Positions 21,935 through 40,934 of a stretch of 64,000 bases of DNA are shown piece after piece. Below the pieces are notes generated by a model, which had not been told where the DNA came from, did no database searches, and was given only the letters and a program-made list of their open reading frames with translations. The position numbers were made by a program, and so were the translations under genes. This DNA comes from Naasia sp. SYSU D00057. Its GTDB lineage: Bacteria > Actinomycetota > Actinomycetes > Actinomycetales > Microbacteriaceae. Location: NCBI RefSeq assembly GCF_017916505.1, contig NZ_JAFMSZ010000001.1:558001-622000 (forward strand), in the 5' to 3' direction. How positions within the stretch are numbered: the first letter of the stretch is position 1; each line of letters begins with the position of its first letter.

Positions 21935-21984
21935 GCTGGGAAGCTAGCGTCGACGCCGCCTCCGGTGGAGGGCCTTCGGTCCCG

Positions 21985-26895: not shown

Positions 26896-27795
26896 TCACC
26901 CCGTTCGGCCGCCGAGTCCGGACAGGTCGGGCCGACCGCCGAGCCTGCCGACGGTGGACGTCGCCGCGGCCTTTCCGAGCGCGCCCGCCTCTTCCGGCCC
27001 CGCACCCTCGTCGAGGGCGGCGATGAGTCCCGCCACGAAAGCGTCCCCGGCGCCCGTCGGATCCACCACCTCGGCCGCCGAATGAGGGAAGAATCGGGAG
27101 CCGCCGCGCCACGCGACCAGGTCGCCGCGCCCGGGGACCGCGAGCGCGACGAGGTCCGGCCCTCGAGCGAGCAGCCGTCCAGCCGCCGCCTCGGCCACCT
27201 CGACCGACGTCAGCGCCGTGCCGGCCCACATCTCCGCCTCCGCCGAGTCGGCGCGCAGCACGTCGGCTCGGGCCAGCAGCTCCTCGGCCTCGCTCCCCTC
27301 CGCTCCGCCGTCGAGCACGACGCGGGCGTCCGGCGGCGCGAGCCGGACGGCAGCGAGCAGAGTGGCGAGCGGCTGCTGCAGCTGGAGGGAGAGCGTCGAC
27401 GCTGATCCGATCGCCCCGGCCGCCCGGTCGAGGTCGGCGGCCACGATGAGGGCCTCGTCCGGCACATCCTCGAGCAGCCGCCGCGAGCCGCCCGCGCCCA
27501 CGATGTCGACCATCAGGGCCGTGCGTCCCCGCAGCGTCACCCCCTCGACGTCCAAGCCGCTGGCGCGCCCGTCCGTGAGCACCATGCGCCCGGCATCGTC
27601 GTCCCCGACCACGCCGACGAGCACGACGTCCCGGCCGAGCTGGCTCAGGCCGACCGCCTGGTTGGCGCCCTTGCCGCCGAGCCGCTCGATCCGCTCGAGC
27701 ACGGGCGCGCTCGCGCCGTCCGCCGGCAGGCAGTCCACCCGGAGCACGAGATCCCGTGCCACCTGTCCCACGACCACGATCCGACCGATCCCCAT
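26896..27795 (-). CDS. PfkB-family sugar kinase (ribokinase-like)
   Basis: A 299-aa carbohydrate or nucleoside kinase. The first PfkB signature contains LGGKGANQAVGLSQLG (residues 39-54), the second EVVDPTGAGDAFVAGL holds the catalytic aspartate in GAGDAF. Substrate cannot be told from sequence; ribose, adenosine and fructose-phosphate kinases share the motifs. The ATG start at 27795 faces the flavodoxin-like gene, with a DosR-like site between them. A PfkB protein (Rv2029c) is a known DosR-regulon member in M. tuberculosis, which makes the shared site notable. Confidence 0.88.
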   Translation of the reverse strand: MGIGRIVVVGQVARDLVLRVDCLPADGASAPVLERIERLGGKGANQAVGLSQLGRDVVLVGVVGDDDAGRMVLTDGRASGLDVEGVTLRGRTALMVDIVGAGGSRRLLEDVPDEALIVAADLDRAAGAIGSASTLSLQLQQPLATLLAAVRLAPPDARVVLDGGAEGSEAEELLARADVLRADSAEAEMWAGTALTSVEVAEAAAGRLLARGPDLVALAVPGRGDLVAWRGGSRFFPHSAAEVVDPTGAGDAFVAGLIAALDEGAGPEEAGALGKAAATSTVGRLGGRPDLSGLGGRTG

Positions 27796-27863: not shown

Positions 27864-27877
27864 GGGACCTTGGCCCC
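27864..27877. promoter_or_regulatory. DosR/DevR-like inverted repeat GGGACCTTGGCCCC
   Basis: GGGAC-CTTG-GCCCC matches the GGGAC-N4-GTCCC layout of the mycobacterial DosR box with one change. It lies 61 bases before the flavodoxin-like start and 68 bases before the divergent PfkB start. Confidence 0.5.
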
Positions 27878-27938
27878 TAGGGCCCTCGACGAGGCCGGCG
27901 GGAGGGTGGGCCCACCCGAAGCCGCAAGGAGCAGAACC

Positions 27939-28511
27939 GTGCTGAAGATCCTCATCGTCTACGAATCCATGTTCGGATCGACCCGTTCCGTCGCGGAAGC
28001 CGTCGAACGAGGTGCGAGATCCGTCGTCGGCAACCGCGTCGCGGTGGCGCTCCGCCGCGTCGGCGACGTGCAGCCGGAGGAGGTCTCGGACGTCGACGTG
28101 CTCGTCGTCGGAGCCCCCACGCACGCCCACTCCCTGAGCCGGCCGGAGTCGAGGGCGGAGGCCGCCAAGTGGGCGCGCGATCCGGCCCGGCAGCTGACCC
28201 TCGAGCCGGACGCACGCGAGGAGGGCATCCGGGAGTTCCTCGCGACCCTGCACCCGACGGATGCCGCGTTCGTGGCCTTCGACACCCGCGTCGACGCCCC
28301 CGAGCTGTTCACCGGATCGGCGGCGAGGGCCATCCGGAAGCGCCTGCTCAAGAAGGGGCTCGAACCCCTGCTGCCGTCGGAGTCCTTCCTCGTGACCACG
28401 GAGGGACGCCTCGTCGACGGCGAGGATACGCGCGCCGAGCACCTGGGCCGCGCGCTCGTCGAGGAGGCGCGGCAGACCTTCCCCGCGACCGGGGCGATGG
28501 CGGGCGCCTGA
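27939..28511 (+). CDS. Flavodoxin-like protein
   Basis: A 190-aa protein with the flavodoxin fold: strand and phosphate loop LKILIVYESMFGSTRSVAEA, and VDVLVVGAPTHAHSL in the position of the FMN-binding loop. This is the long variant seen in actinobacteria near stress genes; the partner reductase is unknown. The GTG at 27939 follows AAGGAG by seven bases; upstream in-frame codons were discarded. A DosR-like box lies upstream. Likely an electron carrier or a quinone/flavin oxidoreductase domain. Confidence 0.85.
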   Translation: MLKILIVYESMFGSTRSVAEAVERGARSVVGNRVAVALRRVGDVQPEEVSDVDVLVVGAPTHAHSLSRPESRAEAAKWARDPARQLTLEPDAREEGIREFLATLHPTDAAFVAFDTRVDAPELFTGSAARAIRKRLLKKGLEPLLPSESFLVTTEGRLVDGEDTRAEHLGRALVEEARQTFPATGAMAGA

Positions 28512-28547
28512 GCCGCACCGCACCCGCCCGCGACGGCCCGCCGCTCG

Positions 28548-28898
28548 TCAGCCGTGTGCTGCGCGAGCGCGCTGCGCAACCTCGCCCAGCTTCCGCTCGA
28601 GGCGCGCGAACGCGTCCCCGCGGTGGCCGGTGAGATGCTCGACGGCGCCGAGCGCCGTGATGGCGACATCGAGCAGCTCCTCGATCACCTCGTCGCGCCC
28701 GTGTGTGACGCCCTTGCGCGGGTTCTGTCCCGTCATGCCGACGAGCGCCGCGACGGCCTCCCCGTGCTCCTCCGCGATCTTCGCGACCCGCCCCCACAGC
28801 TGGGCCTCCGGGTCGCGGTGCGCGTTGCCCGCGTCGATCCACTCGGACAGGGCGACGAGGTTCTGCTGAGCGGTGGGGCGTTCGGCCGGAGGGGTCAT
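28548..28898 (-). CDS. MazG-like nucleotide pyrophosphohydrolase family protein
   Basis: A 116-aa helical protein with the all-alpha NTP-pyrophosphatase pattern: KIAEEHGEAVAALVGMTGQ (EExxE-type metal-binding helix) and RDEVIEELLDVAITALGAVE (the second, ExxD-type helix). Such enzymes remove damaged or excess nucleoside triphosphates, or (p)ppGpp in some cases. ATG start at 28898, 39 bases from a GGGGAC-CTT-GTCCCC inverted repeat shared with the divergent DUF4097 gene. Confidence 0.82.
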   Translation of the reverse strand: MTPPAERPTAQQNLVALSEWIDAGNAHRDPEAQLWGRVAKIAEEHGEAVAALVGMTGQNPRKGVTHGRDEVIEELLDVAITALGAVEHLTGHRGDAFARLERKLGEVAQRARAAHG

Positions 28899-28936
28899 CC
28901 GGCCATGGTTCCAGGTGTCGCCACCGCGCGCGCCAG

Positions 28937-28951
28937 GGGGACCTTGTCCCC
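28937..28951. promoter_or_regulatory. DosR-like inverted repeat GGGGACCTTGTCCCC
   Basis: A perfect 6-bp inverted repeat (GGGGAC/GTCCCC) around CTT. It lies 39 bases from the MazG-like start and 76 bases from the divergent DUF4097 start. Its 3-base spacer is one shorter than the classic DosR box. Confidence 0.45.
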
Positions 28952-29027
28952 TCCCTCCGGTTCCCGGCCGACGGTGTGATCGAGCGGACGCGGCGCCGCG
29001 TCGAAGGACGACAGGATCGAGGACGCC

Positions 29028-29834
29028 GTGGTCACCACCCCCACCGACCAAGGCCCGCGGCGCACCCTGCCACTGCCGGTGAAGCTCCTCCTCTTCGCCG
29101 GCCTGCCGATCCTCTTCGTCGCGATGATCGTCGCCGCGGTCGCCGCAGCGGTGCCGCTGCTGTCGGGCACCAGCGTCGACCTCGACTACCGCGCGCCGGC
29201 CGCCCCGGCCGTGCGAGTCAGCGTGCCGGACGCCCGGCTCGACTTCGTTCCCGCCGACGGGGACGAGGTCCTCGTTCGGGTGACCGGACGGCACACCGGG
29301 CCGGCGCCGGAGCTCCGAGTCGCCACCGTCGGCGACGAGACGCTGATCGAAGGCGGCTGCCCGCGGCAGTGGTTCACCATCTGCACGCTCCGGGTGAGGG
29401 TCGCGCTGCCGGCCGACGCCGACCTCAGCGTCACCGGGACCAACGGGGCCATCTCGGTCGAGGGTCACACGGGCGAGCTGGACCTCGGGACGACCAACGG
29501 CCGGATCGAGTTGGACGGCGTCTCCGGCCCGGTCACGGCGGTCACCACCAACGGGGACGTCCGGCTCGCCGACGGCGCGAGCGAGCGGGTGTCCGCACGC
29601 ACCACGAACGGCGGTGTCGAACTGCACTTCGCCGCAGCGCCGCTGGTCGTCGAGGCGCGGAGCACCAACGGCGGGATCGGCATCCGGCTGCCCGATGACG
29701 GGGAGTCCTACTTCCTCGACGCCCAGACCACGAACGGCGGCGTCGGCGGGGACGTGGAGAGCGACCGCCGCGCCGACCGGACCGTCACGGCCCGGACGAC
29801 GAACGGCGGGATCACGATCGACTGGGCCGACTGA
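29028..29834 (+). CDS. Membrane-anchored DUF4097-type beta-repeat protein
   Basis: A 268-aa protein: a short cytoplasmic start, one membrane helix (KLLLFAGLPILFVAMIVAAVAA, about residues 19-40), then an extracellular part with repeating strands marked by (T/S)TNG at about 20-residue spacing (GTNGAISVEG, TTNGRIELDG, TTNGDVRLAD, TTNGGVELHF, STNGGIGIRL, TTNGGVGGDV, TTNGGITIDW). This is the DUF4097/DUF4098 right-handed beta-helix pattern found in anti-sigma-linked and cell-envelope proteins. GTG start at 29028. Role unknown. Confidence 0.82.
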   Translation: MVTTPTDQGPRRTLPLPVKLLLFAGLPILFVAMIVAAVAAAVPLLSGTSVDLDYRAPAAPAVRVSVPDARLDFVPADGDEVLVRVTGRHTGPAPELRVATVGDETLIEGGCPRQWFTICTLRVRVALPADADLSVTGTNGAISVEGHTGELDLGTTNGRIELDGVSGPVTAVTTNGDVRLADGASERVSARTTNGGVELHFAAAPLVVEARSTNGGIGIRLPDDGESYFLDAQTTNGGVGGDVESDRRADRTVTARTTNGGITIDWAD

Positions 29835-29841
29835 GCCCGGG

Positions 29842-31524
29842 TCAGCGGCGGCGCCGGTGCCGGCCGGTCCAGGCCAGGTAGGTGCTCATCGTCGCGAGCA
29901 CGCCCATGCCCGCGCCCACCAGGGGCGCCTGCCAGGAGCCCCATCGGGTGGGGTTGGCGGCCATGATCTGACCGATCCCGCGCAGGAGCGCGCTCGCGAT
30001 CACCGCGACGACGAGGCGCTGGCCGACCCTCTCCATGCGGCTGACCAGAGGATCGAGCTCGGAGGCGCGCAGGTGCACGTCCACGCCGCCGGCCTCGAGG
30101 ATCTCGCTCACCCGGCGCAGCTGCTCCGGCAGCTCGCCGACGAGGGCGATGACGTCGGCGCGGGAGTCGGTGATGCGGTTCAGCAGTGCGCGCGTCGAGA
30201 GCCGCTGTGCGGCGAGCCGCCGCGCGTACGGGCCGAGCACGGTGCCGAGCTCGAAGTCCGGGTCGAGGCGGGTGCCGATGCCCTCGACGGTGGTCACCAT
30301 CTTGACGAGCAGGGTGATCTCTCGCGGCAGGCGGAGGCGGTGCCGCCGGAGCACCGAGAGGACCGCGAAGCTGAGCCGGCCGACCTGGACCTCGCCGAGC
30401 GACCGTCCGCGGTACAGGTCGATCACGGGCACGAGGTCCGCGGCGAGCGCCGTCGGGTCGGGACTGCGCCGCGAGGTGCCGAGGCGGAGCAGGGCGCCGG
30501 CGAGGCGGCGCGGATCCTTCTGCACGAGGGCGAGCAGCACCCGCGCGAGGCGGTCGCGCAGCTCGTCGTCGAGCTCGCCGACCATGCCGAAGTCGATGAG
30601 GCCGATCCGCCCGTCCGCCTCGATGAAGAGGTTGCCCGGATGGGGGTCGGCGTGGAAGAAGCCGTCCTCGAACACCATGCGCGCGGCGAGGTCGGCGGCC
30701 CGCTCCGCGACGCGGCGCGGCGGCAGCCCGGCCGCCTCGAGGCCGGCGAGGTCGTTGACGCTGATGCCACGGATCCGCTCGAGCGTCAGCACCTCCTTGG
30801 TGCTCGTCTCCCAGTACACCTTGGGGATGTGCAGGCTCCGGTCCGACGCGAAGTCGGCGGCGAAGCGCTCCGCGTTGCGGCCCTCCCGCTCGTAGTCGAG
30901 CTCGGCCCGCAGGCTCGACGCGAACTCCCCGGCGATGCCCTTGAGGTCGTAGTCGGCCGCGGCGCCCCACACCCGGTCGGCCCGCGCCGCCAGCGTCTGG
31001 ATGATCTGGAGGTCCTCTTCGACCTTCTCGAGCACGCCGGGACGGCGGATCTTCACGATCACCTCGGTCCCGTCCAGCAGCCGCGCGGCGTGGGCCTGCC
31101 CGATCGAGGCGCTCGCGAGGGGCGTGGCGTCGAACTCGGCGAACACCTCGGCCGCCGGGCGACCCAGCTCTCGCTCGAGGACCTCCTGAACGACGTAGTC
31201 CGGCACTCCGGGCGCCGCGTCCTGCAGCTTCCTCAGCTCGTCCATGTAGGCGGGAGGCAGCAGCTCGGGGCGGGTGGAGAGGATCTGGCCCAGCTTGATG
31301 AAGGTGGGCCCGAGCTCCTCGAGCGCCAGCCGGAGGTGCTCGGGGTCCGTGTAGGGCCGTTCCCCCGCCCGCTGGCCCTCCCAGCGGGTCAGTCGCGGGA
31401 AGCGCTGGTCGAGACCGGAGACGGCGAGCAGGAAGCCGAGGCTGTGCCGGGCGAGGACCTGGGCGATCTGCCGGTACCGGTCACCGTGCCGGGCCACGCT
31501 CTGAGCCTTCCCGCATGTCCTCAT
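29842..31524 (-). CDS. ABC1/AarF/UbiB-family atypical kinase
   Basis: A 560-aa protein of the UbiB protein-kinase-like family. KxGQ motif FIKLGQILSTR (KLGQ 77-80), the Ala-rich nucleotide loop ASIGQAHAARL, the VIVKIRRPG lysine, the catalytic FFHADPHPGNLF and the metal-binding LIDFGMVGE are all present. Two C-terminal hydrophobic helices (LVVAVIASALLRGIGQIMA, PLVGAGMGVLATMSTYLAW) anchor it in the membrane. Relatives help isoprenoid-quinone or lipid homeostasis; the actinobacterial substrate is unknown. It faces hsp20 across a shared promoter region. Confidence 0.93.
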   Translation of the reverse strand: MRTCGKAQSVARHGDRYRQIAQVLARHSLGFLLAVSGLDQRFPRLTRWEGQRAGERPYTDPEHLRLALEELGPTFIKLGQILSTRPELLPPAYMDELRKLQDAAPGVPDYVVQEVLERELGRPAAEVFAEFDATPLASASIGQAHAARLLDGTEVIVKIRRPGVLEKVEEDLQIIQTLAARADRVWGAAADYDLKGIAGEFASSLRAELDYEREGRNAERFAADFASDRSLHIPKVYWETSTKEVLTLERIRGISVNDLAGLEAAGLPPRRVAERAADLAARMVFEDGFFHADPHPGNLFIEADGRIGLIDFGMVGELDDELRDRLARVLLALVQKDPRRLAGALLRLGTSRRSPDPTALAADLVPVIDLYRGRSLGEVQVGRLSFAVLSVLRRHRLRLPREITLLVKMVTTVEGIGTRLDPDFELGTVLGPYARRLAAQRLSTRALLNRITDSRADVIALVGELPEQLRRVSEILEAGGVDVHLRASELDPLVSRMERVGQRLVVAVIASALLRGIGQIMAANPTRWGSWQAPLVGAGMGVLATMSTYLAWTGRHRRRR

Positions 31525-31587
31525 CCTGCCAGGAGGACGCCCTCCCGCGACGGGCCCTGGGGAAGAGATCGCTCGCCTCCCCTTCCC

Positions 31588-31601
31588 GTGACGAAGGTCC
31601 T
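31588..31601. promoter_or_regulatory. Degenerate DosR-like site GTGACGAAGGTCCT
   Basis: GTGAC-GAAG-GTCCT keeps the 4-base spacer of the DosR box with two changes; on the other strand it reads AGGACCTTCGTCAC, close to the GGGACCTTG sites. It lies 65 bases before hsp20 and 63 before the UbiB-like gene. Confidence 0.4.
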
Positions 31602-31666
31602 ACCCTCGGGAAGCGGCAGGCGCATACGTTCCTACCGCCGCATGGCCCCGACGAAGGAGAGACGCG

Positions 31667-32182
31667 ATGGCGCGGAATCTGGCGAAGCTGAACCCGTTCG
31701 ACGAGCTGATGGGGGTGGGACGGCAGTTCTTCGAGGACGGCATCATGGGCTCGGTCCGCGCCCTCAAGCTGCCGACCACTGACGTCTACACCGAGGACGA
31801 CAAGCGCCTCGTGGTCGAGGCGCATCTCGGCGACTTCGAGGAGCAGGACATCTCGGTCGACCTCGACAAGAACGTCCTCGTCATCCAGGCGGAGCGGCGC
31901 GAGCGCGAGGAGGACAAGTCCAAGAAGTACGTCGTCCGGGAGAGCAGCACCAGCTTCTACCGGCGGGTCGCGCTGCCCGAGCAGGCCGACGAGGCCGCGA
32001 TCGAGGCGCGCTTCGAGAACGGCATCCTCAAGGTGACGGTCCCGTTCCGCGACTCGCCCTCCCCGAAGCGGATCCCCATCGGCGGCGTCGGCTCCGCTCA
32101 GGGCGCCGGAACCGGATCAGGAGCGACCGGGGAGGCGGGCGGAGCCGACAGCGCGAGCGCCGCACCGGCGGAGCGCGACTAG
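31667..32182 (+). CDS. Small heat shock protein, Hsp20/alpha-crystallin family
   Basis: A 171-aa chaperone that holds unfolding proteins. The alpha-crystallin domain spans about residues 35-135 (LPTTDVYTEDDKRLVVEAHL, then FYRRVALPEQ and the conserved ARFENGILKVTVPF). A 35-residue Gly/Ala/Ser-rich tail follows the C-terminal KRIPIG motif, longer than in most bacterial Hsp20. ATG start after GAAGGAGAG. HspX, a member of this family, is the best-known DosR target in mycobacteria; here a weak DosR-like site lies upstream. Confidence 0.95.
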   Translation: MARNLAKLNPFDELMGVGRQFFEDGIMGSVRALKLPTTDVYTEDDKRLVVEAHLGDFEEQDISVDLDKNVLVIQAERREREEDKSKKYVVRESSTSFYRRVALPEQADEAAIEARFENGILKVTVPFRDSPSPKRIPIGGVGSAQGAGTGSGATGEAGGADSASAAPAERD

Positions 32183-32274
32183 GCGGACAGCCGGCGGCCG
32201 GCGCCGCCCGCCGCAACCGGCAGGGGTCCACGGCCTCCCACCTGCCGCCGATCGGCCGCGCCTAGGATCGGGCC

Positions 32275-33696
32275 GTGGAGCTGCTGCTGGGCATAGTGGG
32301 AGCGGGGGTCCTGCTCGTCGGACTGGGGGTCGCCGGCGCGGTCGCGCTCCGCTCACGCGGTCGGAGAGCCCCCGTCCGAGCTGCGGCGCCCGCGCAGAGC
32401 AGGGGCGTCCCCGCGACGCCGGACGCGGCCGGCGAGCTGGAGCGCGCCGCCGGCTCCGCGCTCGTCCGCACCGACGAGCGGATCCGCCTCGCCGAGGACG
32501 AGCTCGGGTTCGCGATCGCCGAACTGGGTGAGTCGGCTGCCGCAGACCTCCGGACCGCGCTGAAGCGGGCGAAGCAGCGGCTGAGCGACGCCTTCCACCT
32601 CAACCAGCTGCTCAGCGACGCCGTCCCCGACACGGAGACGCAGCGCGCCGAATGGAACGAACGCATCGTGTCGCTCTGCCGCTCCGCGGACTCGGCCCTC
32701 CAGGAGCAGCACCGGGCGCTGACCGAGCGACGCGACACGATGCGCCGCGTCCCCGCCGAGATCGAGCGGGTGCGCGGCGAGCTCGCGCGGGTGCGCGGGC
32801 TGCTCCCCGGCGCGGCCGCGACGCTCCCCCGCCTCGCCGCAACCTACTCCGAACAGGCCCTCGCCCCGATCGCCGCCAATCCCGAGCAGGCCGAGCAGCT
32901 GATCAGGTTCGCCGACCGCAGCCTGGAGCTGGCGGAGTCCCGATCGGCGACCAGGCCCGGCGAGGCGGACGCCGCGGTGCGCGCCGCGGCGGAGACCGCG
33001 CAGCGGGCGGAGGCGCTCATCGCCGCGGTCGAGCGGTTCGAGGTCGAGGCGCTGCAGGCCGAGTCGACTCTCGCCGCGATGGTCGCCGAGTCGCATGCCG
33101 AGCTCGCCGAGGCCCGTCGCCTGCCGGAGGCGGAGCGCCGAGGCCGGATCGGCGCCGCCATCGCGGCGCTCGAGCAGGCCCTCGCCGCCCTGCCGCCCGC
33201 GGGCGAGCGCCGGGATCCGGTCGGTTCGCTCACCGCCATCCGCGGGGCGAACGAAGCGCTCGACGACGCGGTCGCCGAGCGGGTGGAGCGCGCCGAGCGC
33301 CGGAACCGTCTGCGCACCCAGTTCGTCACCGCGATCGACGACGCCGAGCGGCAGATCGCGACCGCCCGCCAGCTCATCACCGACTACCGCGCACCGGTCG
33401 GCCCGGATGCCCGCACCCGCCTCGCCGAGGCGGAGCGGGAGCTCGCGACGATGACGGACGAGCGCGAGCCGGAGCCCGCGCTCGCCCGCGCCCGGCGGGC
33501 GGCCTCCCTCGCCGCGGAGGCGGCGGCGCTCGCCCGCGCGGACCTCGAGGCCGGCTACGCCGGCTGGGGCTCCCCGTCCCGCGGCCGGAGCACGGCAGCG
33601 CCGCAGGTGCTCGGCGGCGTCCTCGGCGGCCTCGCCATCGGGGGCCTCCTCGACGACATCGGCGACCTGGGCGGTCTCGGCGACCTCTTCGACTGA
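32275..33696 (+). CDS. Membrane-anchored coiled-coil protein, TPM-protein C-terminal half without the TPM domain
   Basis: A 473-aa protein with one N-terminal helix (LLLGIVGAGVLLVGLGVAGAV), then about 400 residues of Ala/Glu/Arg-rich coiled coil (LARVRGLLPGAAATLPRLAA, NPEQAEQLIRFADRSLELAE), ending in a Gly-rich tail with LGGLGDLFD. It resembles the C-terminal half of actinobacterial TPM-domain (YgcG/Psb32-like) proteins, but the extracellular TPM domain is missing and the membrane anchor is at the very start. GTG start. It follows hsp20 in the same direction, suggesting an envelope-stress role, which is inference. Confidence 0.75.
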   Translation: MELLLGIVGAGVLLVGLGVAGAVALRSRGRRAPVRAAAPAQSRGVPATPDAAGELERAAGSALVRTDERIRLAEDELGFAIAELGESAAADLRTALKRAKQRLSDAFHLNQLLSDAVPDTETQRAEWNERIVSLCRSADSALQEQHRALTERRDTMRRVPAEIERVRGELARVRGLLPGAAATLPRLAATYSEQALAPIAANPEQAEQLIRFADRSLELAESRSATRPGEADAAVRAAAETAQRAEALIAAVERFEVEALQAESTLAAMVAESHAELAEARRLPEAERRGRIGAAIAALEQALAALPPAGERRDPVGSLTAIRGANEALDDAVAERVERAERRNRLRTQFVTAIDDAERQIATARQLITDYRAPVGPDARTRLAEAERELATMTDEREPEPALARARRAASLAAEAAALARADLEAGYAGWGSPSRGRSTAAPQVLGGVLGGLAIGGLLDDIGDLGGLGDLFD

Positions 33697-33702
33697 GGCC
33701 GG

Positions 33703-34620
33703 TCAGGCCGGGGAGGACGCTCCCGGAACGCGGCGCGCATGCTGTGCGGGGCGGGCGCCGAGCTCGGGCCCGTACCGCTTCAGCAGGACGAGCGCGATCG
33801 CCCACGGCAGCACCCCGTAGGCGACCTGCGCCGGGTAGCTGCCCGACGAGAGCACGAGGTAGGACTGCACCCAGTTCCCGAACCCGTGCAGCACGAGAAT
33901 CCAGAACAGGCTCTCGCCCGTCCCGTTGAAGATCCACGTGATCACGAGCGTCCAGCCGACCGCGCCGAACGTGAGGCCGAGGACGGTGGCGATCGCCATC
34001 GGCACGGTGAGCTGTCCGAGCAGCAGCGGCGGCAGCAGGTTCGACGGGAGATGCCACAGCCCCCACGCGAGGCCGAGGATCCAGCTCGCGCGCTCGGCCG
34101 TGTGGCGGCGCTGCAGCACCGGCAGTGCGTAGCCGCGCCAGCCGATCTCCTCCGCGACGGCCGTGAAGACGAGCAGGTGCAGCAGGAACGGGAGGGCGAG
34201 CGCGAACGGCACGAGCGGCGCGTAGTCGAACGGCGCGAACCCGCTCGCGACGTAGCCGAGAAGCAGGGCGGCGACCGACAGGGCGACCGGGATCAGGAGC
34301 ACGGCGACCACGAAGCGCGGAGGGACGCGCACCCTCGCGAGGCGGCGCCCGAGGTCGCGGAAGCCCTCCCGCCCCTGGGCGAGCGCGATCACGATGAGCC
34401 CGGCCACGGTCGGGCCGAACGAGAACGAGAACAGCAGGAAGATCCCGAGGAAGGCGGGATCCGCCCTCCCGAGGAACGCGTCCGTGAAGTGGACCACGTT
34501 GGCCTCGTTAGTGAGGCGCTCGCCCCGGCGATCCGCGTACACGTAGGCGGGGATCTGGATCGACCACGTGATGGCGTAGGCGAGGACGAAGAACAGCGGG
34601 ATCTGGACGCGCCGGATCAT
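33703..34620 (-). CDS. CPBP-family intramembrane glutamic protease
   Basis: A 305-aa, eight-helix membrane protein. The active-site motif EEIGWRGY has E157, E158 and R162; H190 in GLWHLPSN and the later HGFGNW complete the CPBP (CAAX/Abi) pattern. Bacterial members process or protect peptides, or bind them for immunity. I took the ATG at 34620; open frame continues upstream but has no hydrophobic start. A DosR-like box lies 36 bases upstream, shared with the divergent DUF1653 gene. Confidence 0.9.
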   Translation of the reverse strand: MIRRVQIPLFFVLAYAITWSIQIPAYVYADRRGERLTNEANVVHFTDAFLGRADPAFLGIFLLFSFSFGPTVAGLIVIALAQGREGFRDLGRRLARVRVPPRFVVAVLLIPVALSVAALLLGYVASGFAPFDYAPLVPFALALPFLLHLLVFTAVAEEIGWRGYALPVLQRRHTAERASWILGLAWGLWHLPSNLLPPLLLGQLTVPMAIATVLGLTFGAVGWTLVITWIFNGTGESLFWILVLHGFGNWVQSYLVLSSGSYPAQVAYGVLPWAIALVLLKRYGPELGARPAQHARRVPGASSPA

Positions 34621-34656
34621 GCGCGCATGGTGTCGCCCGCATCCCTCGCCCGGGTA

Positions 34657-34670
34657 GGGACGTTGGCCCC
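34657..34670. promoter_or_regulatory. DosR-like inverted repeat GGGACGTTGGCCCC
   Basis: GGGAC-GTTG-GCCCC differs from the site at 27864 by one base. It lies 36 bases from the CPBP start and 57 bases from the divergent DUF1653 start. Confidence 0.45.
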
Positions 34671-34727
34671 CCTCCGGCGGGCGGCCCTTCTCGGGCACCG
34701 GAGCGTGCCGTCGCCTAGCGTGGACGC

Positions 34728-34931
34728 ATGCAGCCGGGCACCTACCGCCACTACAAGGGGAACCTCTACGAGGTGCTGGGCGTCGCCCGCCACTCGGAGA
34801 CGGAGGAGCAGCTGGTCGTCTACCGCGCTCTCTACGGCGAGGGCGGGCTGTGGGTACGGCCGCTCGCCATGTTCCAGGAGCCGGTCCCGGTGGACGGCGG
34901 CCTGGTGCCGAGGTTCGCTCCGCTCGACTGA
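34728..34931 (+). CDS. DUF1653 protein
   Basis: A 67-aa soluble protein matching DUF1653 along its length: PGTYRHYKGNLYEVLGVARH, then TEEQLVVYRALYGEGGLWVR and RPLAMFQEPV. The family is a small beta-barrel of unknown role found in many bacteria. ATG start at 34728; monocistronic, convergent with the next gene. Confidence 0.92.
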   Translation: MQPGTYRHYKGNLYEVLGVARHSETEEQLVVYRALYGEGGLWVRPLAMFQEPVPVDGGLVPRFAPLD

Positions 34932-34954
34932 CGCGGCCCGGGCAGCCCGCGTCC

Positions 34955-35935
34955 TCAGGCGGCGGAACCGCCTCCCCGGCGGGCACGCAGCCGGTCGAGC
35001 GCCACGGCGCCGAGCGCGCCCACCGCCAGCGCGAGCAGGAGCGGCGGGAGCACCAGCTCCGGCATGCCCGACGCCATCAGGAAGACCCCTGCCGCGTAGT
35101 CGAGCATCTCGGCGGGATACGGCGCGAGCACCCGGGTTCCCGCGGCGGCGCTCACCGCAGTGATCGCGGCCGACCCCAGCCAGAGCAGCAGCAGGGCGGA
35201 GGCCGCGGCGAGGACCCGCCCGACCGAGCGGAATCCGCACCACGCGATGGCGGCGCCGACGAGGAGCGCCGGCACCCAGCGAGTTCCGGCGAGCAGCCAT
35301 GCGGAGGCCGGGCTCTGCAGCGATCCGAACGGCGCGACGAGCGAGTTCGCCCAGATGCCGGCGGCAAGTGCCGCCGTCGCGAACGCGACCGTCGCGCCGG
35401 GCCGCGCCGATCGTCCGGCCAGCAGCAGCACGACGACTCCGATCGCGATCGAGAGGATGACCACGGCGACCAGGGCGGCGAGGTAGAGGACCGCTCGGGT
35501 GCTCTGCTCCTGTCCATCGGCCACGACGAGCGCCGACTGCGTGCCGGCGCCGCCCTGCACGAGCAGAACGCCGACCGCGATCGCCGCGAGGTCGCCGCGA
35601 CCGCGCCGGGCCGCGGTGGCGCGCGCGACGAGGCCGGCGATCGCGGCACCGGTCATGAGGAGCCCGGCCAGCAGGGTGACGGCGTACTGGCTGAAGGGCA
35701 GCAGCGCGATCGGCATCTCGTCCGGCAGCGCCGCCATCGCCCAGAGGTTCTGGAGGGGCAGCCGCATCCCGGATCCGATCCACGGCAGCAGCCCGAGGAT
35801 CGCCGCCCCGGCTCCGATCCCGAAGGACGCGAGGAGCCCGAGCCGCCTCGCCGGCCGGTCCTCCGCGGACGCCTCGCGCTCCACCGCCGCCGCTGGCGTG
35901 CCCGGTGCTGCGGATCCGTAGCCTGCGTCGTCCAC
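34955..35935 (-). CDS. Multi-pass membrane protein, unknown family
   Basis: A 326-aa protein with about nine hydrophobic segments, including LLASFGIGAGAAILGLLPWI, VTLLAGLLMTGAAIAGLVAR, LYLAALVAVVILSIAIGVVV and LPPLLLALAVGALGAVALDR. The N-terminal 30 residues are charged and cytoplasmic. No transporter or enzyme motif recognised. It is divergent from the next membrane protein gene; the 145-base gap contains GC-rich inverted repeats (TCCGGGG-GTCCA-CCCCGGA near 35981-35999). Function unknown. Confidence 0.75.
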   Translation of the reverse strand: MDDAGYGSAAPGTPAAAVEREASAEDRPARRLGLLASFGIGAGAAILGLLPWIGSGMRLPLQNLWAMAALPDEMPIALLPFSQYAVTLLAGLLMTGAAIAGLVARATAARRGRGDLAAIAVGVLLVQGGAGTQSALVVADGQEQSTRAVLYLAALVAVVILSIAIGVVVLLLAGRSARPGATVAFATAALAAGIWANSLVAPFGSLQSPASAWLLAGTRWVPALLVGAAIAWCGFRSVGRVLAAASALLLLWLGSAAITAVSAAAGTRVLAPYPAEMLDYAAGVFLMASGMPELVLPPLLLALAVGALGAVALDRLRARRGGGSAA

Positions 35936-36080
35936 CCGCGTCCCCTCCCCCGAATCGGCTCATCCTGGCAGACGGGCGAGCTCCGGGGGTCCACCCCGGA
36001 GGGCCCGCGTTTCGCAGGGGACCCCGGAAGTCCGGGAGGATTGCGGTCGGGCATCCCGCCCGCCGGGAAGGACGATCAGC

Positions 36081-37223
36081 GTGACAGTGGACTCCGAGCG
36101 GGCCGACTCGACTTTCGCCGCCGATGGCGACGGCGGCAGCGAGACAGTGCTCGGCCTGATCGCCGCCCCCGGGAAGCCGGCGCAGCTGGTCGCCGCCCTG
36201 CGGGACGAGCTCCGCGCCGCCCTCGAGGCGCGCGTCCCCGGCGTCGCGTGGCGGATCGAGGTCGTCGAGGACTCGCTCGTCGATCCCCAGGCGAGCGGGA
36301 CGGAGCTCGTCGGTCGCGCCCGCGAGGAGCTGCTCGACCGCGATTGGGACATCGCGGTGTGCCTCACCGACCTGCCGCTCCGGATCGCCCGCCGGCCCGT
36401 CCTGGCGCACGCGAGCCCGGTGCACGGCGTCGGCGTCATCAGCGTGCCCGCACTCGGTGCGGTCGCCGTGCATCGGAAGGCGCAGGACCGCGTCCTCCGG
36501 CTCGTCGACGCCCTGCTGGGTGAGTCCGAGGAGGTGGGCTCCTCGGCCGGACCGGGGCGCCAGCGCCGGATGGCCCAGCGGGCGCGGGACCTCGCGCGGG
36601 ACACGGAGGACGGGGACGCCTCCGGTCTCGTGCTGACGAGTCGGGTACTCACCGGGGACCTGCGGCTGCTCGCGGGCATGGTGCGCGCGAACCGGCCGTG
36701 GCGGCTGGCGGCGCGGCTGTCCCGCGCCCTCACGGGCGCGGTCGCCACCGGCGTGCTGGCGCTCGTCACCTCGGACATCTGGCGGCTCGGCGCCTCACTC
36801 GACGGGGCCCGCCTGACGCTCGTCGCGCTCGCCGCGGTCGGGGCGATCAGCGCCACGCTGATCGTGGGTGCCGGGCTGTGGGAGCGGGCCCGCCACCGGG
36901 GCGTGCGCCACCAGGTCGTCCTCTTCAACCTCGCGACGACGATCACCGTCGCGATCGGGGTGCTCACGCTCTACGCCGCACTGCTCGTGCTCGCTCTGCT
37001 CGCCGCGTTCCTGCTGGTCACCCCGGAGGTGCTCGGCGACGTGCTGGAGCGCCCGGTCGGGACCGGCGACTACGTGCGGCTGGCCTGGCTCGCCGCCTCT
37101 CTCGCGACCCTCGGCGGCGCACTCGGCGCGGGGCTGGAGTCCGACGAGGCGGTGCACGAGGCGGCGTACACCCACCGCGCCGGCGACCGAAGCGGCTCGG
37201 GTCCGGACGTCGCGGACGACTGA
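36081..37223 (+). CDS. Conserved actinobacterial membrane protein with cytoplasmic N-domain
   Basis: A 380-aa protein. Residues 22-180 are soluble (VLGLIAAPGKPAQLVAALRD; DWDIAVCLTDLPLRI; GVGVISVPALGAV) and look like a Rossmann-type alpha/beta domain; residues about 215-370 carry four or five membrane helices (GAVATGVLALVTSDIWRLGA, TLVALAAVGAISATLIVGAG, TITVAIGVLTLYAALLVLAL). I recall this layout from actinobacterial proteins near stress genes, but no function is established. GTG start after GGGAAGGA. Confidence 0.75.
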   Translation: MTVDSERADSTFAADGDGGSETVLGLIAAPGKPAQLVAALRDELRAALEARVPGVAWRIEVVEDSLVDPQASGTELVGRAREELLDRDWDIAVCLTDLPLRIARRPVLAHASPVHGVGVISVPALGAVAVHRKAQDRVLRLVDALLGESEEVGSSAGPGRQRRMAQRARDLARDTEDGDASGLVLTSRVLTGDLRLLAGMVRANRPWRLAARLSRALTGAVATGVLALVTSDIWRLGASLDGARLTLVALAAVGAISATLIVGAGLWERARHRGVRHQVVLFNLATTITVAIGVLTLYAALLVLALLAAFLLVTPEVLGDVLERPVGTGDYVRLAWLAASLATLGGALGAGLESDEAVHEAAYTHRAGDRSGSGPDVADD

Positions 37224-37265
37224 GCCGCCCTTCCGGCGACGACGTGCGCGGAGCATGATGAGCCG

Positions 37266-37688
37266 ATGAGCGACGCAGCGGGAACGACCGGGTCGACGGG
37301 TGTCATGGAGCTGTCCGCGGACGACTGCTGGGACTTCCTGCGCAGCCAGCAGGTCGGCAGGCTCGCCGTGAGCGTCGGCGGAGTCCCCGACATCTTCCCG
37401 GTGAACTACGCCGTCGCCGACCTGACGATCCTCTTCCGAACGGCATCGGGCACGAAGCTGATGGAGCTGGCCGCCAACCGGTCCGTGGCCTTCGAGGCGG
37501 ACCGCTGGAATGTCGCGGAGGGGGTCAGCGTGGTCATCCGAGGGCGGGCGCACGTGCTGGAAGGAGCGGAGGCGGAGGACCTCTCCTACGTCGACCTCGC
37601 GACGTGGGCGCCCGGTGAGAAGCCGACGCTGGTCCAGATCCGGCCGGCCGCCGTGAGCGGGCGGCGCCTCACGCTCAAAAAGCGGTAG
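37266..37688 (+). CDS. PPOX-fold flavin-binding protein
   Basis: A 140-aa protein of the pyridoxamine 5'-phosphate oxidase-like split-barrel family: LSADDCWDFLRSQQVGRLAV, then PDIFPVNYAVADLTILFRTA, GTKLMELAANRSVAFEAD and WNVAEGVSVVIRGRAHVL. Relatives bind FMN, F420 or heme and include nitroimidazole-reductase-like proteins and Rv0080, a DosR-regulon member. Too short to be true PdxH. ATG start at 37266, 42 bases after the preceding membrane protein gene, so possibly co-transcribed. Confidence 0.88.
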   Translation: MSDAAGTTGSTGVMELSADDCWDFLRSQQVGRLAVSVGGVPDIFPVNYAVADLTILFRTASGTKLMELAANRSVAFEADRWNVAEGVSVVIRGRAHVLEGAEAEDLSYVDLATWAPGEKPTLVQIRPAAVSGRRLTLKKR

Positions 37689-37756
37689 GGGCGCCTCGGC
37701 TCGTTCGCCGGCTGGTCCGAGCCCTGCCCGGTCGAGGCGGCGGCGTCCCCGGCTCC

Positions 37757-38176
37757 CTAGCCGTCGAGCCCGAGCTGCCGGGTGAAGTCCTCGCTGTCGA
37801 AGTAGAAGTGGTGGCGCGTGATGACGCCGCCCTCGACCACCGCGATGTCGCAGCTGCGCACCCGGACCGAGCGACCGGTCGGCGGTATCGAGTCGCCGGA
37901 CGGCGTTCGGAGGGGCCCGGTGTGCACGCCGGTCAGGTAGCCCTCGTCGATCGCGACGTTCCCGTCCTCGTACTGCGCCGACGACTCGTACCCGCCGTCC
38001 GGGAACGCCTCGCCCCACACCGAGAGCCAGCGGACGACGGCGTCTCGGCCGCGGAGCTCGCCGGAATCCGGCGTCACCGCCACCGCGTCCTCGGCGTAGC
38101 AGGCGCGGACCGCCTCCAGGTCGTTCGCCTCGAGTGCGGCAGTGGCGCGGTCCGCCACCTCACGTGCGATCCCCAT
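37757..38176 (-). CDS. SnoaL-like NTF2-fold protein
   Basis: A 139-aa soluble protein with the SnoaL polyketide-cyclase-like pattern: ATAALEANDLEAVRACYAED, GRDAVVRWLSVWGEAFPDGG, and the C-terminal GGVITRHHFYFDSEDFTRQL. Function across the family ranges from isomerases to unknown. I used the ATG at 38176 because AGGAGG sits six bases before it; a GTG two codons upstream lies too close to the ribosome site. Confidence 0.85.
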   Translation of the reverse strand: MGIAREVADRATAALEANDLEAVRACYAEDAVAVTPDSGELRGRDAVVRWLSVWGEAFPDGGYESSAQYEDGNVAIDEGYLTGVHTGPLRTPSGDSIPPTGRSVRVRSCDIAVVEGGVITRHHFYFDSEDFTRQLGLDG

Positions 38177-38375
38177 GGTCACCCTCCTTCGTCCCAGGCA
38201 GCGCGCCGCCCTGAGGCAGCCGGTCCAGTGAAGCGCCGCCGTCGCAGCGGCGACACGGGCTTCGGTCCCGCAGGAGGGCAGCGGCGACGACGGGGCGGGC
38301 GTGTCAGCCCCGAGGACGCCCGGTTCCGCTCTCGGCTTCGCCCCATCAGGACCGAAAGGCGGCCATCATCGGTGC

Positions 38376-39008
38376 ATGGGTCCCCGCGTACGTTCCGCCT
38401 CGTCGCTGACGGGGATCAGCGCCGTCCTCGGCGGATCGCTCTGGGTGGGGCACACCATCCTCCTCGCCGTGCGTCCTCTGGGGTGTGTCGGTCAGGCCTG
38501 CTTCGAGGGGGCTCGACGTCACCGCGAGAGCGAGGACATCGCCGGGCTGCTCCTCGTCTCTGTTCTGCTGCTCGCGGTGAGCGTGGCGGCTGCCCTCCGC
38601 GAGGATGGCCGCCTCGGACGATTCCGGCTGGCCTCGCTGGTGCTGCTCGTGCTCGGGGCCGCGCTGCTCGCTCTCGGTATCGCCGTGAACCGCGGCTCGT
38701 CGGACGGCGCGACGCTCTGGTGGCTCCACGACTCGGACACCCTCGGGCGCATAGTGCCGGTGCTCGGAACGCTGATGGCCGGAATCGCGATGCTCCGCGA
38801 CGGCACACCGCGCTGGCTGCCGGCACTGTTCCTCCTGGCGGCGGCAGCCTCGTTCGGCGTCAACATCCAGGACGAGCGCGCACTGCTGGGCCTGCCCGTC
38901 GGTGTCGCGTGGGCGGCTCTCGGCGCGCACGTGCTCCTGGTCGGCAGGCCCTCCGCTGCCGCGCCGCCGAAGCTGCCGACCGGCGCCGGACCGGTCTCTC
39001 GTCGCTGA
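38376..39008 (+). CDS. Membrane protein, about five helices
   Basis: A 210-aa membrane protein with hydrophobic segments LTGISAVLGGSLWVGHTILL, IAGLLLVSVLLLAVSVAAAL, LASLVLLVLGAALLALGIAV and GLPVGVAWAALGAHVLLVG. No conserved active-site motif recognised. The ATG at 38376 is the first clean start; open frame extends 75 bases further up but is Pro/Gly-rich and lacks a ribosome site. Divergent from the SnoaL-like gene and convergent with the next. Function unknown. Confidence 0.65.
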   Translation: MGPRVRSASSLTGISAVLGGSLWVGHTILLAVRPLGCVGQACFEGARRHRESEDIAGLLLVSVLLLAVSVAAALREDGRLGRFRLASLVLLVLGAALLALGIAVNRGSSDGATLWWLHDSDTLGRIVPVLGTLMAGIAMLRDGTPRWLPALFLLAAAASFGVNIQDERALLGLPVGVAWAALGAHVLLVGRPSAAAPPKLPTGAGPVSRR

Positions 39009-39045
39009 TCCTCGGCTCCCGGCGCGCGCTCTTCCGGTGGCCTGT

Positions 39046-39351
39046 TCAGCCGACCTCGTCGCCCATCTTCACCTGGTCGGCGAACATCACGTCCGGCCGC
39101 CCTACTGCGAGGGTGCCGAGGATGCGCTGCACCTCCGGGTTGTTCATCCATGCCTGAAACTGCTCGGCGCTCTCCCACTCGTCGACGACGATCAGCTCGC
39201 CGTCCGAGGCGTACGTACGATGCCGAAGCACGCCTTCCGGCTGACCCGCCCGTTGCAGAGCTGCGAGCATCTCCGGGTCGTCGGCGTACCGCTGCGCGAG
39301 CTCCTCCGGGTCCCCCTCCACACGGGCCCTCATGATCACCAGCGTCGTCAT
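39046..39351 (-). CDS. Antibiotic-biosynthesis-monooxygenase-like (dimeric alpha/beta barrel) protein
   Basis: A 101-aa protein with the ferredoxin-like pattern of the ABM/EthD group: TTLVIMRARVEGDPEELAQR, EGVLRHRTYASDGELIVVDE and WESAEQFQAWMNNPEVQRIL. These form dimeric barrels and are often monooxygenases or of unknown role. The ATG at 39351 follows GAGAGGGG; the longer frame upstream is not credible. The 243-base stretch between it and the tRNA genes holds only a terminator. Confidence 0.8.
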   Translation of the reverse strand: MTTLVIMRARVEGDPEELAQRYADDPEMLAALQRAGQPEGVLRHRTYASDGELIVVDEWESAEQFQAWMNNPEVQRILGTLAVGRPDVMFADQVKMGDEVG

Positions 39352-39560
39352 CGTCGCCCCTCTCATCGCCGGACTGCCGGTCGGCACTCCGGCAGCCAAA
39401 GTAGACCTGGCGGACGACAGAGCGACCGGGGCATAGGTCCCGGGACGCTCACATCGGCGCACCCGGGCCGCGGCGCCCCGGCGCCGTTCGACGCCCTCCC
39501 CGGAGTCGCCCTACGGAGTTCGACGTGCCGGTCGGACAGGATCCGCCGAGGCGCACATAC

Positions 39561-39593
39561 AAGAAGAACCCCCTGGGGAAGCCAGGGGGTTCT
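39561..39593 (-). terminator. Terminator of the tRNA cluster
   Basis: GAACCCCCTGG and CCAGGGGGTTC (39566-39576 and 39582-39592) form an 11-bp stem with a 5-base loop; on the minus strand TTCTTCTTG follows. It lies just past tRNA-Val(GAC). Confidence 0.85.
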
Positions 39594-39598
39594 CGTGG

Positions 39599-39670
39599 TG
39601 GGCGATACTGGGATCGAACCAGTGACCTCTTCCGTGTCAGGGAAGCGCGCTACCGCTGCGCCAATCGCCC
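39599..39670 (-). tRNA. tRNA-Val(GAC)
   Basis: 72 nt on the minus strand: acceptor GGGCGAT/ATCGCCC, anticodon stem CTTCC/GGAAG around loop CTGACAC (anticodon GAC), T arm ACTGG-TTCGATC-CCAGT, discriminator A, and CCA encoded at 39596-39598. It is last of three minus-strand tRNA genes. Confidence 0.97.
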
Positions 39671-39696
39671 GCGTTCGCGGAGATGCTCCGCGGCCG

Positions 39697-39767
39697 AGGT
39701 GGAGACGGGATTCGAACCCGCGTATACGGCTTTGCAGGCCGCTGCCTCGCCTCTCGGCCACTCCACC
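39697..39767 (-). tRNA. tRNA-Cys(GCA)
   Basis: 71 nt on the minus strand: acceptor GGTGGAG/CTCCACC, anticodon loop CTGCAAA (anticodon GCA), T arm GCGGG-TTCGAAT-CCCGT, discriminator T. CCA is not encoded. Middle of the Gly-Cys-Val cluster. Confidence 0.97.
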
Positions 39768-39796
39768 GTACGTGGATCTCGAAGATGTCCCACTCG

Positions 39797-39868
39797 AGCG
39801 GATGACGAGATTCGAACTCGCGACCCTCACCTTGGCAAGGTGATGCGCTACCACTGCGCCACATCCGC
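39797..39868 (-). tRNA. tRNA-Gly(GCC)
   Basis: 72 nt on the minus strand: acceptor GCGGATG/CATCCGC, anticodon stem TCACC/GGTGA around TTGCCAA (anticodon GCC), T arm GCGAG-TTCGAAT-CTCGT, discriminator T, no encoded CCA. First gene of the cluster. Confidence 0.97.
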
Positions 39869-39900
39869 ATTTCAGTGCCGCTCTCGCGGCCGCCTCAACG

Positions 39901-39930
39901 ACTCTAACCGATTGGATACCCGGTCGCCAA
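39901..39930 (-). promoter_or_regulatory. Putative promoter of the Gly-Cys-Val tRNA cluster
   Basis: On the minus strand TTGGCG (39925-39930) and TAGAGT (39901-39906) are separated by 18 bases, placing transcription start about 25 bases before tRNA-Gly. Confidence 0.5.
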
Positions 39931-40019
39931 ACCGAGCGCGGAGTGTGACGACTCTCACCCGTTCGCGACGCGAACGTGGCGCGGAGCGGTGCCCGAGGTG
40001 TGGCAAGATTGACGGGCGC

Positions 40020-40092
40020 GGGCGATTGGCGCAGTTGGTAGCGCGCTTCCTTCACACGGAAGAGGTCATCGGTTCGAGTCCGGTATCGCCCA
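40020..40092 (+). tRNA. tRNA-Val(CAC)
   Basis: 73 nt: acceptor GGGCGAT/ATCGCCC, anticodon stem CTTCC/GGAAG around TTCACAC (anticodon CAC), T arm ATCGG-TTCGAGT-CCGGT, discriminator A, CCA encoded at 40093-40095. Closely similar to the tRNA-Val(GAC) on the opposite strand 350 bases away. Confidence 0.97.
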
Positions 40093-40096
40093 CCAG

Positions 40097-40122
40097 AACC
40101 CCCGGTCTTCCGGGGGTTTTCC
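40097..40122 (+). terminator. Terminator of tRNA-Val(CAC)
   Basis: AACCCCCGG (40097-40105) and CCGGGGGTT (40110-40118) form a 9-bp stem with a TCTT loop, followed by TTCC. It starts two bases after the encoded CCA. Confidence 0.85.
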
Positions 40123-40154
40123 TGTTCCCGGGCTGGACAGCGAGACGCGCCGGA

Positions 40155-40313
40155 TCAGGCGTGACGCCGCCCGACGCCGTGCATCGCCTTGCCGGCGAGG
40201 AAGGCGACGAACGACACGGTGCCCGCGAGCACGACCGCGCCGATGCACAGCGCGGTGGCCGTGACACCGGCCCAGAGGAGGTCGGGCAGGGCTTCGAACA
40301 GTGGGTCGCTCAT
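40155..40313 (-). CDS. Small single-helix membrane protein
   Basis: A 52-aa protein starting MSDPLFEALPDLLWAGVTAT, with one membrane helix (about residues 13-40, ALCIGAVVLAGTVSFVAFLA) and a basic end GKAMHGVGRRHA. The ATG at 40313 follows GGAGGGG by six bases, a strong ribosome site. No family recognised. A perfect DosR-like box lies 159 bases upstream. Confidence 0.6.
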   Translation of the reverse strand: MSDPLFEALPDLLWAGVTATALCIGAVVLAGTVSFVAFLAGKAMHGVGRRHA

Positions 40314-40472
40314 GGCGGCCCCTCCTCTCCGACGGGTGGTTCGGACGGCTGGGTAGACAGAGAGTTCCACCCGCGTGGTCCAGGGGCCATCCCTTGCAGG
40401 TAACGGATCGGCGTCGATTGCGCGAACAGGCTTTGCCGGACGTCGGCGACAGTCCGGAAACCGATTCCCCGA

Positions 40473-40486
40473 GGGACCTTGGTCCC
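40473..40486. promoter_or_regulatory. DosR-like inverted repeat GGGACCTTGGTCCC
   Basis: GGGAC-CTTG-GTCCC matches GGGAC-N4-GTCCC exactly, with 6-bp arms around TT. It lies in the otherwise empty 285-base gap between the divergent genes starting at 40313 and 40599. Confidence 0.5.
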
Positions 40487-40598: not shown

Positions 40599-40919
40599 AT
40601 GCAGCCCGCTCCCACGCCCATCCCGTTCCGCCGCCCGCTCGCTCGCGGGCACCTCACGGCGGTGCCCCTCTCCGACACCGAGTGGCGCGTCAGCGACGAC
40701 CGCCTCGCGGCCGACGACGGCCGCTCCGTGATCGGGTTCGTGACCCGCACCCACGGGGTCTACGAGGTCGTCGAGTTCGGCGACCCCGTCCGGTTCTTCC
40801 TGGAGGCGACGCTCGAGGCGGCGCTGCGCCACCTCGCCGAGACGATGCCGACGGACCAGGAGGCCGTGGTGACCGAGCTGGCCTCCCGCCGGCCGCGCCC
40901 GATCCCCCACGCCGTCTAG
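40599..40919 (+). CDS. Conserved hypothetical protein
   Basis: A 106-aa soluble protein: RPLARGHLTAVPLSDTEWRV, SDDRLAADDGRSVIGFVTRT, HGVYEVVEFGDPVRFFLEAT and LEAALRHLAETMP. The pattern of strands then a helix looks like a small globular domain, but I do not recognise the family. The ATG at 40599 follows ACAGGA; longer in-frame starts have no ribosome site. A perfect DosR-like box is 112 bases upstream. The large CAGCAGG repeat array begins 15 bases after its stop. Confidence 0.65.
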   Translation: MQPAPTPIPFRRPLARGHLTAVPLSDTEWRVSDDRLAADDGRSVIGFVTRTHGVYEVVEFGDPVRFFLEATLEAALRHLAETMPTDQEAVVTELASRRPRPIPHAV

Positions 40920-40934
40920 GTGCCAGGCCGGTAG

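Follow-up and report, generated by a model that had tools for sequence, protein, structure and literature searches.

In the 64-kb stretch of the Naasia sp. SYSU D00057 genome analysed here (the window, C11:558001-622000, of a 3.36 Mb assembly in 21 contigs that we call the own genome), short palindromic boxes resembling GGGAC-N4-GTCCC lie between genes. We consider it very likely that they serve as operators for a response regulator of the DevR/DosR/OsdR type, whose gene is on the same contig (C11:734464-735120), in an operon with a DevS/DosT-like kinase. Given this regulator and its box, we place the regulon in the DevR/OsdR kind, while its input has, judging from the kinase sequence, probably departed from haem-based oxygen sensing. 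We put the probability at roughly 65% that a DosR-type regulon has become disconnected from haem-based gas sensing in this genus of the Microbacteriaceae, with the regulator, the boxes and the target set kept, and the GAF-A domain of the kinase reading a different signal. What sets this system apart from those known is a kinase without the defining haem-ligand residue, in a family where most aligned kinases have it.

Exact matches to GGGACSTTGKYCCC are present at four positions of the window (27864, 28938, 34657, and 40473), as the first-pass annotation of this DNA had reported, and all four are intergenic by our gene calls (a hand-picked gene list, which covers 81% of 20087-42773 as coding). 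The chance of four out of four falling between genes is 0.19^4, or ~0.001, a post hoc figure. Genome-wide there are five exact matches, four of them in one 12.6-kb part of the window and the fifth at C11:729829, beside the DevR-type regulator. With at most one mismatch, the whole genome holds 19 matches versus 7 for the reversed pattern; with at most two, the window holds 12 (at 11 places, 40473 being counted on both strands) versus a shuffled mean of 5.8. The annotation also described a degenerate copy at 31588 and a weaker one at 21970, and both sequences read as described. It further suggested scoring such sites with a weight matrix. Ours was derived from 41 GGG[AC]C-N4-G[GT]CCC sites near the regulator in 21 loci from relatives within the family, with none from the own genome, and was applied to the window and the other stretches fetched, while the whole genome was searched by pattern alone. 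The top ranks went to 40473 (20.7 bits), 27864 (15.5 bits), 21970 (14.9 bits, so not a weaker site after all), and 39428 (12.5 bits), in that order, with 34657 eighth (10.6 bits), 31588 fifteenth (7.5 bits), and 28938 twenty-fourth (5.05 bits). Four sites in the window reached at least 12 bits versus a mean of 1.0 in windows simulated with its dinucleotide transitions, and nine reached at least 10 bits versus 2.5 expected from such windows.

The annotation was right that no LuxR-type regulator lies in the window: at an expectation value (E) of 0.001, the genome has 17 GerE-domain matches and C11:558001-622000 has none. The DosR/NarL-type regulator and GAF-domain kinase that it proposed to look for were both found on this contig, ~111 kb beyond the end of the window. 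The regulator itself (218 amino acids, ~112 kb past the window, GerE match at C11:734914) combines REC (PF00072) and GerE (PF00196) domains. Its closest solved relative is M. tuberculosis DevR (3c3w; E = 3e-61, 210 bits), the next solved protein reaching 130, and in the DNA-binding part LAEKTVKNYVS is identical to DevR and LAEKTVKNYVS-LL-KLG is kept. Directly upstream in the operon, with a four-base overlap, is the kinase gene (564 amino acids, C11:732773-734467); the closest solved relatives of its product are the GAF domains of DosT (E = 2e-33) and DevS (E = 3e-28). Phospho-acceptor motifs of both proteins look intact by eye. Four universal stress protein genes and a phosphoketolase gene surround the pair, and C11:729829-735375 contains six matrix sites of at least 18 bits, including one that precedes the start of the kinase gene by 28 bp. 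The universal stress genes carry boxes at C11:730821, 730838, 732731, and 735375. Four marks of DevR/DosR/OsdR-type membership were found: a DevR-closest regulator with REC and GerE domains, an adjacent kinase of the order GAF, GAF, HisKA_3, HATPase, boxes, and box-bearing universal stress genes. Strong matrix sites were also observed further off, at C11:632038 and C11:60018. The gene behind C11:632038 encodes a phosphoribosyltransferase-dienelactone hydrolase fusion; Rv0571c of the mycobacterial regulon presumably has the same architecture, of which no mention was found in one review.

Other features were noted around the pair. The phosphoketolase gene (C11:736434-738893; L037:14434-16893) comes after a universal stress gene preceded by a box at ~60 bp, and we can guess at feedback on the regulator through carbon overflow to acetyl phosphate. 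Some 4 kb from the pair, at C11:726031-728645 (L037:4031-6645), lie another NarL-type regulator and an apparently membrane-spanning kinase (type judged by eye).

Boxes and regulator were compared across 199 genomes of the family, of which 73, own included, have an ortholog of the regulator (E <= 1e-56). Where matches were fragmentary or paralogous, as in four genomes, the genome was counted as regulator-free. The main comparison (72 vs. 126 genomes) excluded the own genome and treated genomes as independent. The pattern GGGACSTTSGYCCC occurred at 62 sites in regulator-bearing genomes versus 18 in the others (0.86 vs. 0.14 per genome, ~sixfold; Mann-Whitney p about 1e-7, for genomes that are not independent), whereas the reversed control was flat (18 vs. 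23 sites, 0.25 vs. 0.18 per genome). Keeping the own genome gave 72 sites in 73 versus 18 in 126, and dropping the four ambiguous genomes gave 62 in 72 versus 15 in 122. At least three sites were observed in 10 of the 72 regulator-bearing genomes and in none of the 126 others. Split by right half, there were 29 versus 4 sites with GTCCC and 33 versus 14 with GCCCC, the latter ~4 times as common per genome with the regulator. Boxes also cluster around the regulator: the 21 regulator loci of relatives hold GGG[AC]C-N4-G[GT]CCC 41 times versus 3 for the control pattern, and 80 loci of titled public records with homologous kinases have 40 sites of at least 15 bits, in 29 loci, versus 1 in reversed sequence. 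The kinase is present in four of the nine genomes of the genus examined (one of the nine being 68% complete), and in all four a box stands directly before the kinase gene. One family genome (G034) has two DevR-type regulators, at C1:98127 (L097) and C1:724611, with exact boxes within a few kb of each.

The kinase departs from its relatives in its sensor domain. The proximal haem ligands are His149 in DevS and His147 in DosT, and among the DevS GAF-A histidine mutants reported there, H149A alone lost the His-ligated haem spectrum (PMC4082495). The aligned GAF-A stretch reads GFPLHHPPMR in DosT and GFPEGLTPLD in the own kinase. The proximal histidine is kept in 19 of 22 aligned family kinases, including those of congeners G199 and G203; it is replaced by Leu in the own kinase and by Gln in congener G068, and is lost in G021. 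The family kinases were drawn from 20 regulator loci chosen from the match list, for the most part among its top matches, together with four of the own genus; the kinase of locus L114 was left out (29% identity, with an aligned region that does not include the histidine stretch). Among further homologues (the best 80 of 499), 78 keep the histidine, with the alignment at that position uncertain in one (L160). The GHLPxGHGLLG loop is also altered in the own and G068 kinases, while a distal tyrosine, equivalent to DevS Tyr171 by counting from His149, is kept in GNLYL. Of the residues that mark a DosS/DosT haem sensor, the distal tyrosine is therefore present and the proximal histidine is not, and for want of this ligand the kinase is not classed as a haem-based sensor of oxygen. 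A single origin of the histidine loss was rejected: the 22-row tree of family kinases needs three changes, and well-supported branches make two of these unavoidable, in the clade of the own genus and in G021, which gives at least two losses in all. Within the genus, G068 groups with the His-bearing G199 at 92/88 (below the tool's mark), and one loss is indistinguishable from two.

Hypoxia or nitric oxide (NO), which the first-pass annotation had in mind as the signal, is unsupported because the haem-ligand histidine is missing from the kinase, and hypoxia is the least certain part of our reading. With this histidine and part of the preceding loop lost, the kinase probably no longer responds to O2, NO, or carbon monoxide (CO) on a GAF haem; a redox or small-molecule signal instead would be a guess. 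The own GAF-A (L037:10773-12464) has cysteines at ARCGALGV and LYLCDR that, by eye, are found in none of the other 21 aligned kinases, and a redox role for them is conceivable.

From the gene and box content, the clustering of the boxes, their co-occurrence with the regulator, and their conservation, we infer the following course of events. On its signal, the kinase would phosphorylate the regulator, which would then bind GGGAC-N4-GTCCC-like palindromes ~30-120 bp before its targets and switch them on. Predicted targets are the regulator's own operon and the universal stress proteins, and probably the phosphoketolase and the phosphoribosyltransferase-hydrolase; in the window they would include at least the 106-amino-acid protein gene (40599) and the flavodoxin gene (27939), perhaps with PfkB. 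This would amount to activation of the own operon together with stress and redox genes dispersed over the genome, similar to what has been reported for phosphorylated OsdR (OsdR~P) of S. coelicolor (PMC5069765).

The best box of the window, GGGACCTTGGTCCC (40473..40486; boxes are given without strand), is of the DevR type and lies 112 bp upstream of its likely target, a plus-strand gene for a 106-amino-acid protein with no Pfam or NCBIfam match (40599..40919). Homologues of this gene were found in 7 of the 199 genomes, own included. In congeners G068 and G199 the identical 14-mer precedes the homologue, and in G068 it is unchanged within a poorly alignable stretch. The related CGGGACCTTCGACCCT precedes the homologue in G114 and one of two copies in G022, and there is no conserved box before the second G022 copy or those of G089 and the regulator-free G006 and G044. 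The second-ranking DevR-type box, GGGACCTTGGCCCC (27864..27877), is overlapped by a weaker copy at 27872 (11.6 bits). It stands between the likely target, a flavodoxin-like protein of 190 amino acids (27939..28511, plus strand; Pfam Flavodoxin_1 E = 3e-5, narrowly missing the cut-off), and a divergent PfkB-family, ribokinase-like sugar kinase that is a possible target (26896..27795, minus strand; PF00294 E = 1e-40, with ribokinase as the best NCBIfam match, below cut-off). DevR-type box GGGCCTTCGGTCCC (21970..21983) lies 35 bp before the start of a minus-strand gene for a 116-amino-acid protein with no Pfam or NCBIfam match (21584..21934), a possible target. The weaker DevR-type box GGGACGTTGGCCCC (34657..34670), of the GCCCC class, lies between two possible targets: a CPBP/Rce1-like membrane protease (33703..34620, minus strand; PF02517 E = 4e-12) and a DUF1653 protein (34728..34931, plus strand; PF07866 E = 1e-31). 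The degenerate box (31588..31601) separates an Hsp20/alpha-crystallin gene (31667..32182, plus strand; PF00011 E = 3e-19) from a divergent ABC1/UbiB-type kinase gene (29842..31524, minus strand; PF03109 E = 4e-79).

Genes homologous to hsp20, PPOX and the flavodoxin gene of the window adjoin the regulator in some of the relatives. Flavodoxin homologues are present in 26 of the 199 genomes, own included; in 15 of the 25 other genomes the regulator (in G009, a regulator fragment alone) is no more than 12 kb away. An upstream site of at least 10.5 bits, a cut-off chosen after the scores were seen, was observed for 8 of 19 flavodoxin homologues in regulator-bearing genomes (G009 counted) versus none of 7 loci (6 genomes) elsewhere; at 12 bits or more, the count was 6 of 19 versus 1.6% of random stretches. 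Of the 21 family loci, two (L116 and L114) have an Hsp20 homologue next to the regulator. Boxes precede hsp20 by 93 bp in G055 (18.6 bits, a training site of the matrix) and by 61 bp in G080 (12.5 bits, not a training site). The best site in G068, at 71 bp, scores 4.3 bits in a promoter too diverged to speak of conservation, which was rejected there. PPOX homologues are present in 12 of the 21 regulator loci, and 3 of these 12, when scanned, have an upstream site of at least 12 bits. The PPOX gene of the window itself (37266..37688, plus strand, pyridoxamine oxidase fold; PF12900 E = 4e-27) has no box upstream by the matrix (best score -0.8) and was rejected as a direct target.

Several results weigh against the regulon as we propose it. 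Exact GGGACSTTSGYCCC is absent from 40 of the 72 regulator-bearing genomes, so the consensus varies, and the non-independence of the genomes limits the comparison as a whole. The symmetric GGGMCSWWSGKCCC, tried as a genus-level discriminator, was not clearly above control (29 vs. 19 sites in the four kinase-bearing genomes, 8 vs. 6 in the five others). Among the 19 flavodoxin homologues from genomes with the regulator (the G009 fragment counted), 11 have no upstream site of at least 10.5 bits, G089 has both the regulator and the 106-amino-acid homologue and no box, and the hsp20 site is weak both here (7.5 bits) and in G068 (4.3 bits). The site at 28938..28951, between a minus-strand gene for a 116-amino-acid protein and a DUF4097 gene (29028..29834, plus strand; PF13349 E = 4e-12), is unsupported as a box. 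It can be read as two half-sites one base closer (GGGAC-N3-GTCCC) or as having a TCCCC right half; the pattern GGGACSTTSTCCCC for this class gave 15 sites in the 199 genomes versus 11 for the reversed control, of which 5 fall in the 73 genomes that have the regulator (own included) and 10 in the 126 others. As the variant thus shows no link to the regulator, 28938 was rejected, and membership of the DUF4097 gene in the regulon is unsupported. A tentative alternative, which we take seriously but think somewhat improbable, is that the real boxes are those around the regulator plus 40473, and that the other window sites are chance matches in DNA of 72% GC. The scores at 28938, 31588, and 34657 are within the range that simulated windows reach, and the GCCCC class has a higher background, with its 14 sites in 126 regulator-free genomes. 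However, 27864 scores 15.5 bits and homologues of the gene behind it are box-bearing and regulator-linked elsewhere in the family, and GCCCC sites are still ~4 times commoner where the regulator is present. It seems very improbable that the palindromes serve a different regulator or form RNA hairpins. The 17 GerE-domain matches and the second NarL-type regulator and kinase ~4 kb away do offer candidates, but box number tracks the DevR-type gene, a box directly precedes the kinase gene throughout the kinase-bearing genomes of the genus, and the pattern resembles published OsdR sites (PMC5069765).

The sensor could also still be haem-based, through another ligand or with the missing histidine compensated elsewhere, which would make this an ordinary hypoxia regulon. 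GAF-A is otherwise well conserved, with the distal tyrosine retained; in the own kinase it contains histidines at EHAHGQ, and the kinase core motifs look intact by eye. We nevertheless think this unlikely, as H149A was the one GAF-A histidine mutant of DevS reported to lose the His-ligated spectrum (PMC4082495), the histidine and the loop are both altered in the own and G068 kinases, and the genome has no second DevS-like kinase at E 1e-30. On balance, the candidate DosR/DevR-like regulon of the first-pass annotation is upheld overall, while the site at 28938, a direct box for the PPOX gene, and the hypoxia or NO signal are unsupported.

Elsewhere in the window, the fourth-ranking matrix match (39428..39441), which could be chance, lies upstream of an ABM-domain gene (39046-39351, minus strand; ABM E = 9e-6). 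A tRNA cluster occupies 39596-40095, in which Val(gac), Cys, and Gly are encoded by the minus strand and Val(cac) by the plus strand. Short CCTGCTGAA/CAGCAGGCA-type repeats, seen by eye, follow one another through 40919-41640, between the 106-amino-acid protein gene and a minus-strand gene at 41652-42773.

The system shares with the Mycobacterium DosR (DevR) regulon a homologous regulator and kinase, the presence of Hsp20, PfkB-fold, and universal stress genes, and the 4-base spacer of the palindrome. Unlike that regulon, its sensor has no equivalent of His149/His147, the hsp20 box is weak, the PfkB protein is ribokinase-like, and the PPOX gene has no box. OsdR/OsdK of S. coelicolor is alike in its DevR-type regulator, GAF kinase, surrounding universal stress genes, and boxes such as CGGGACCTTCGGCCCT, the site predicted at SCO5979, whose intergenic region was bound in vitro when used as a probe (PMC5069765). 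The reported number of oxygen-sensing residues retained by OsdK is 15 of 18 (DosT) or 12 of 18 (DevS) (PMC5069765), whereas the haem histidine is gone from the own kinase; the targets differ, and the boxes here are GGGAC-S-WW-S-G(K/Y)CCC, not AGGGCCGATCGGCCCT. PolS-PolR of Microlunatus phosphovorus is likewise a DevS/DevR-like pair, but the bound promoters reported there are those of phosphate and polyphosphate genes (PMC6754071).

Full-text searches found no report of a DosR regulon in Microbacteriaceae, and wider ones gave no title concerning this family, which is weak evidence of absence with most subscription journals outside their coverage. DosR-type regulons are regarded as switches that respond to oxygen, NO, and CO. 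Close relatives that have the same regulator and boxes, with or without the haem histidine, would form a natural set for asking whether a non-haem signal can drive dormancy-type regulons, and the family-wide box may be usable for target prediction in Microbacteriaceae.

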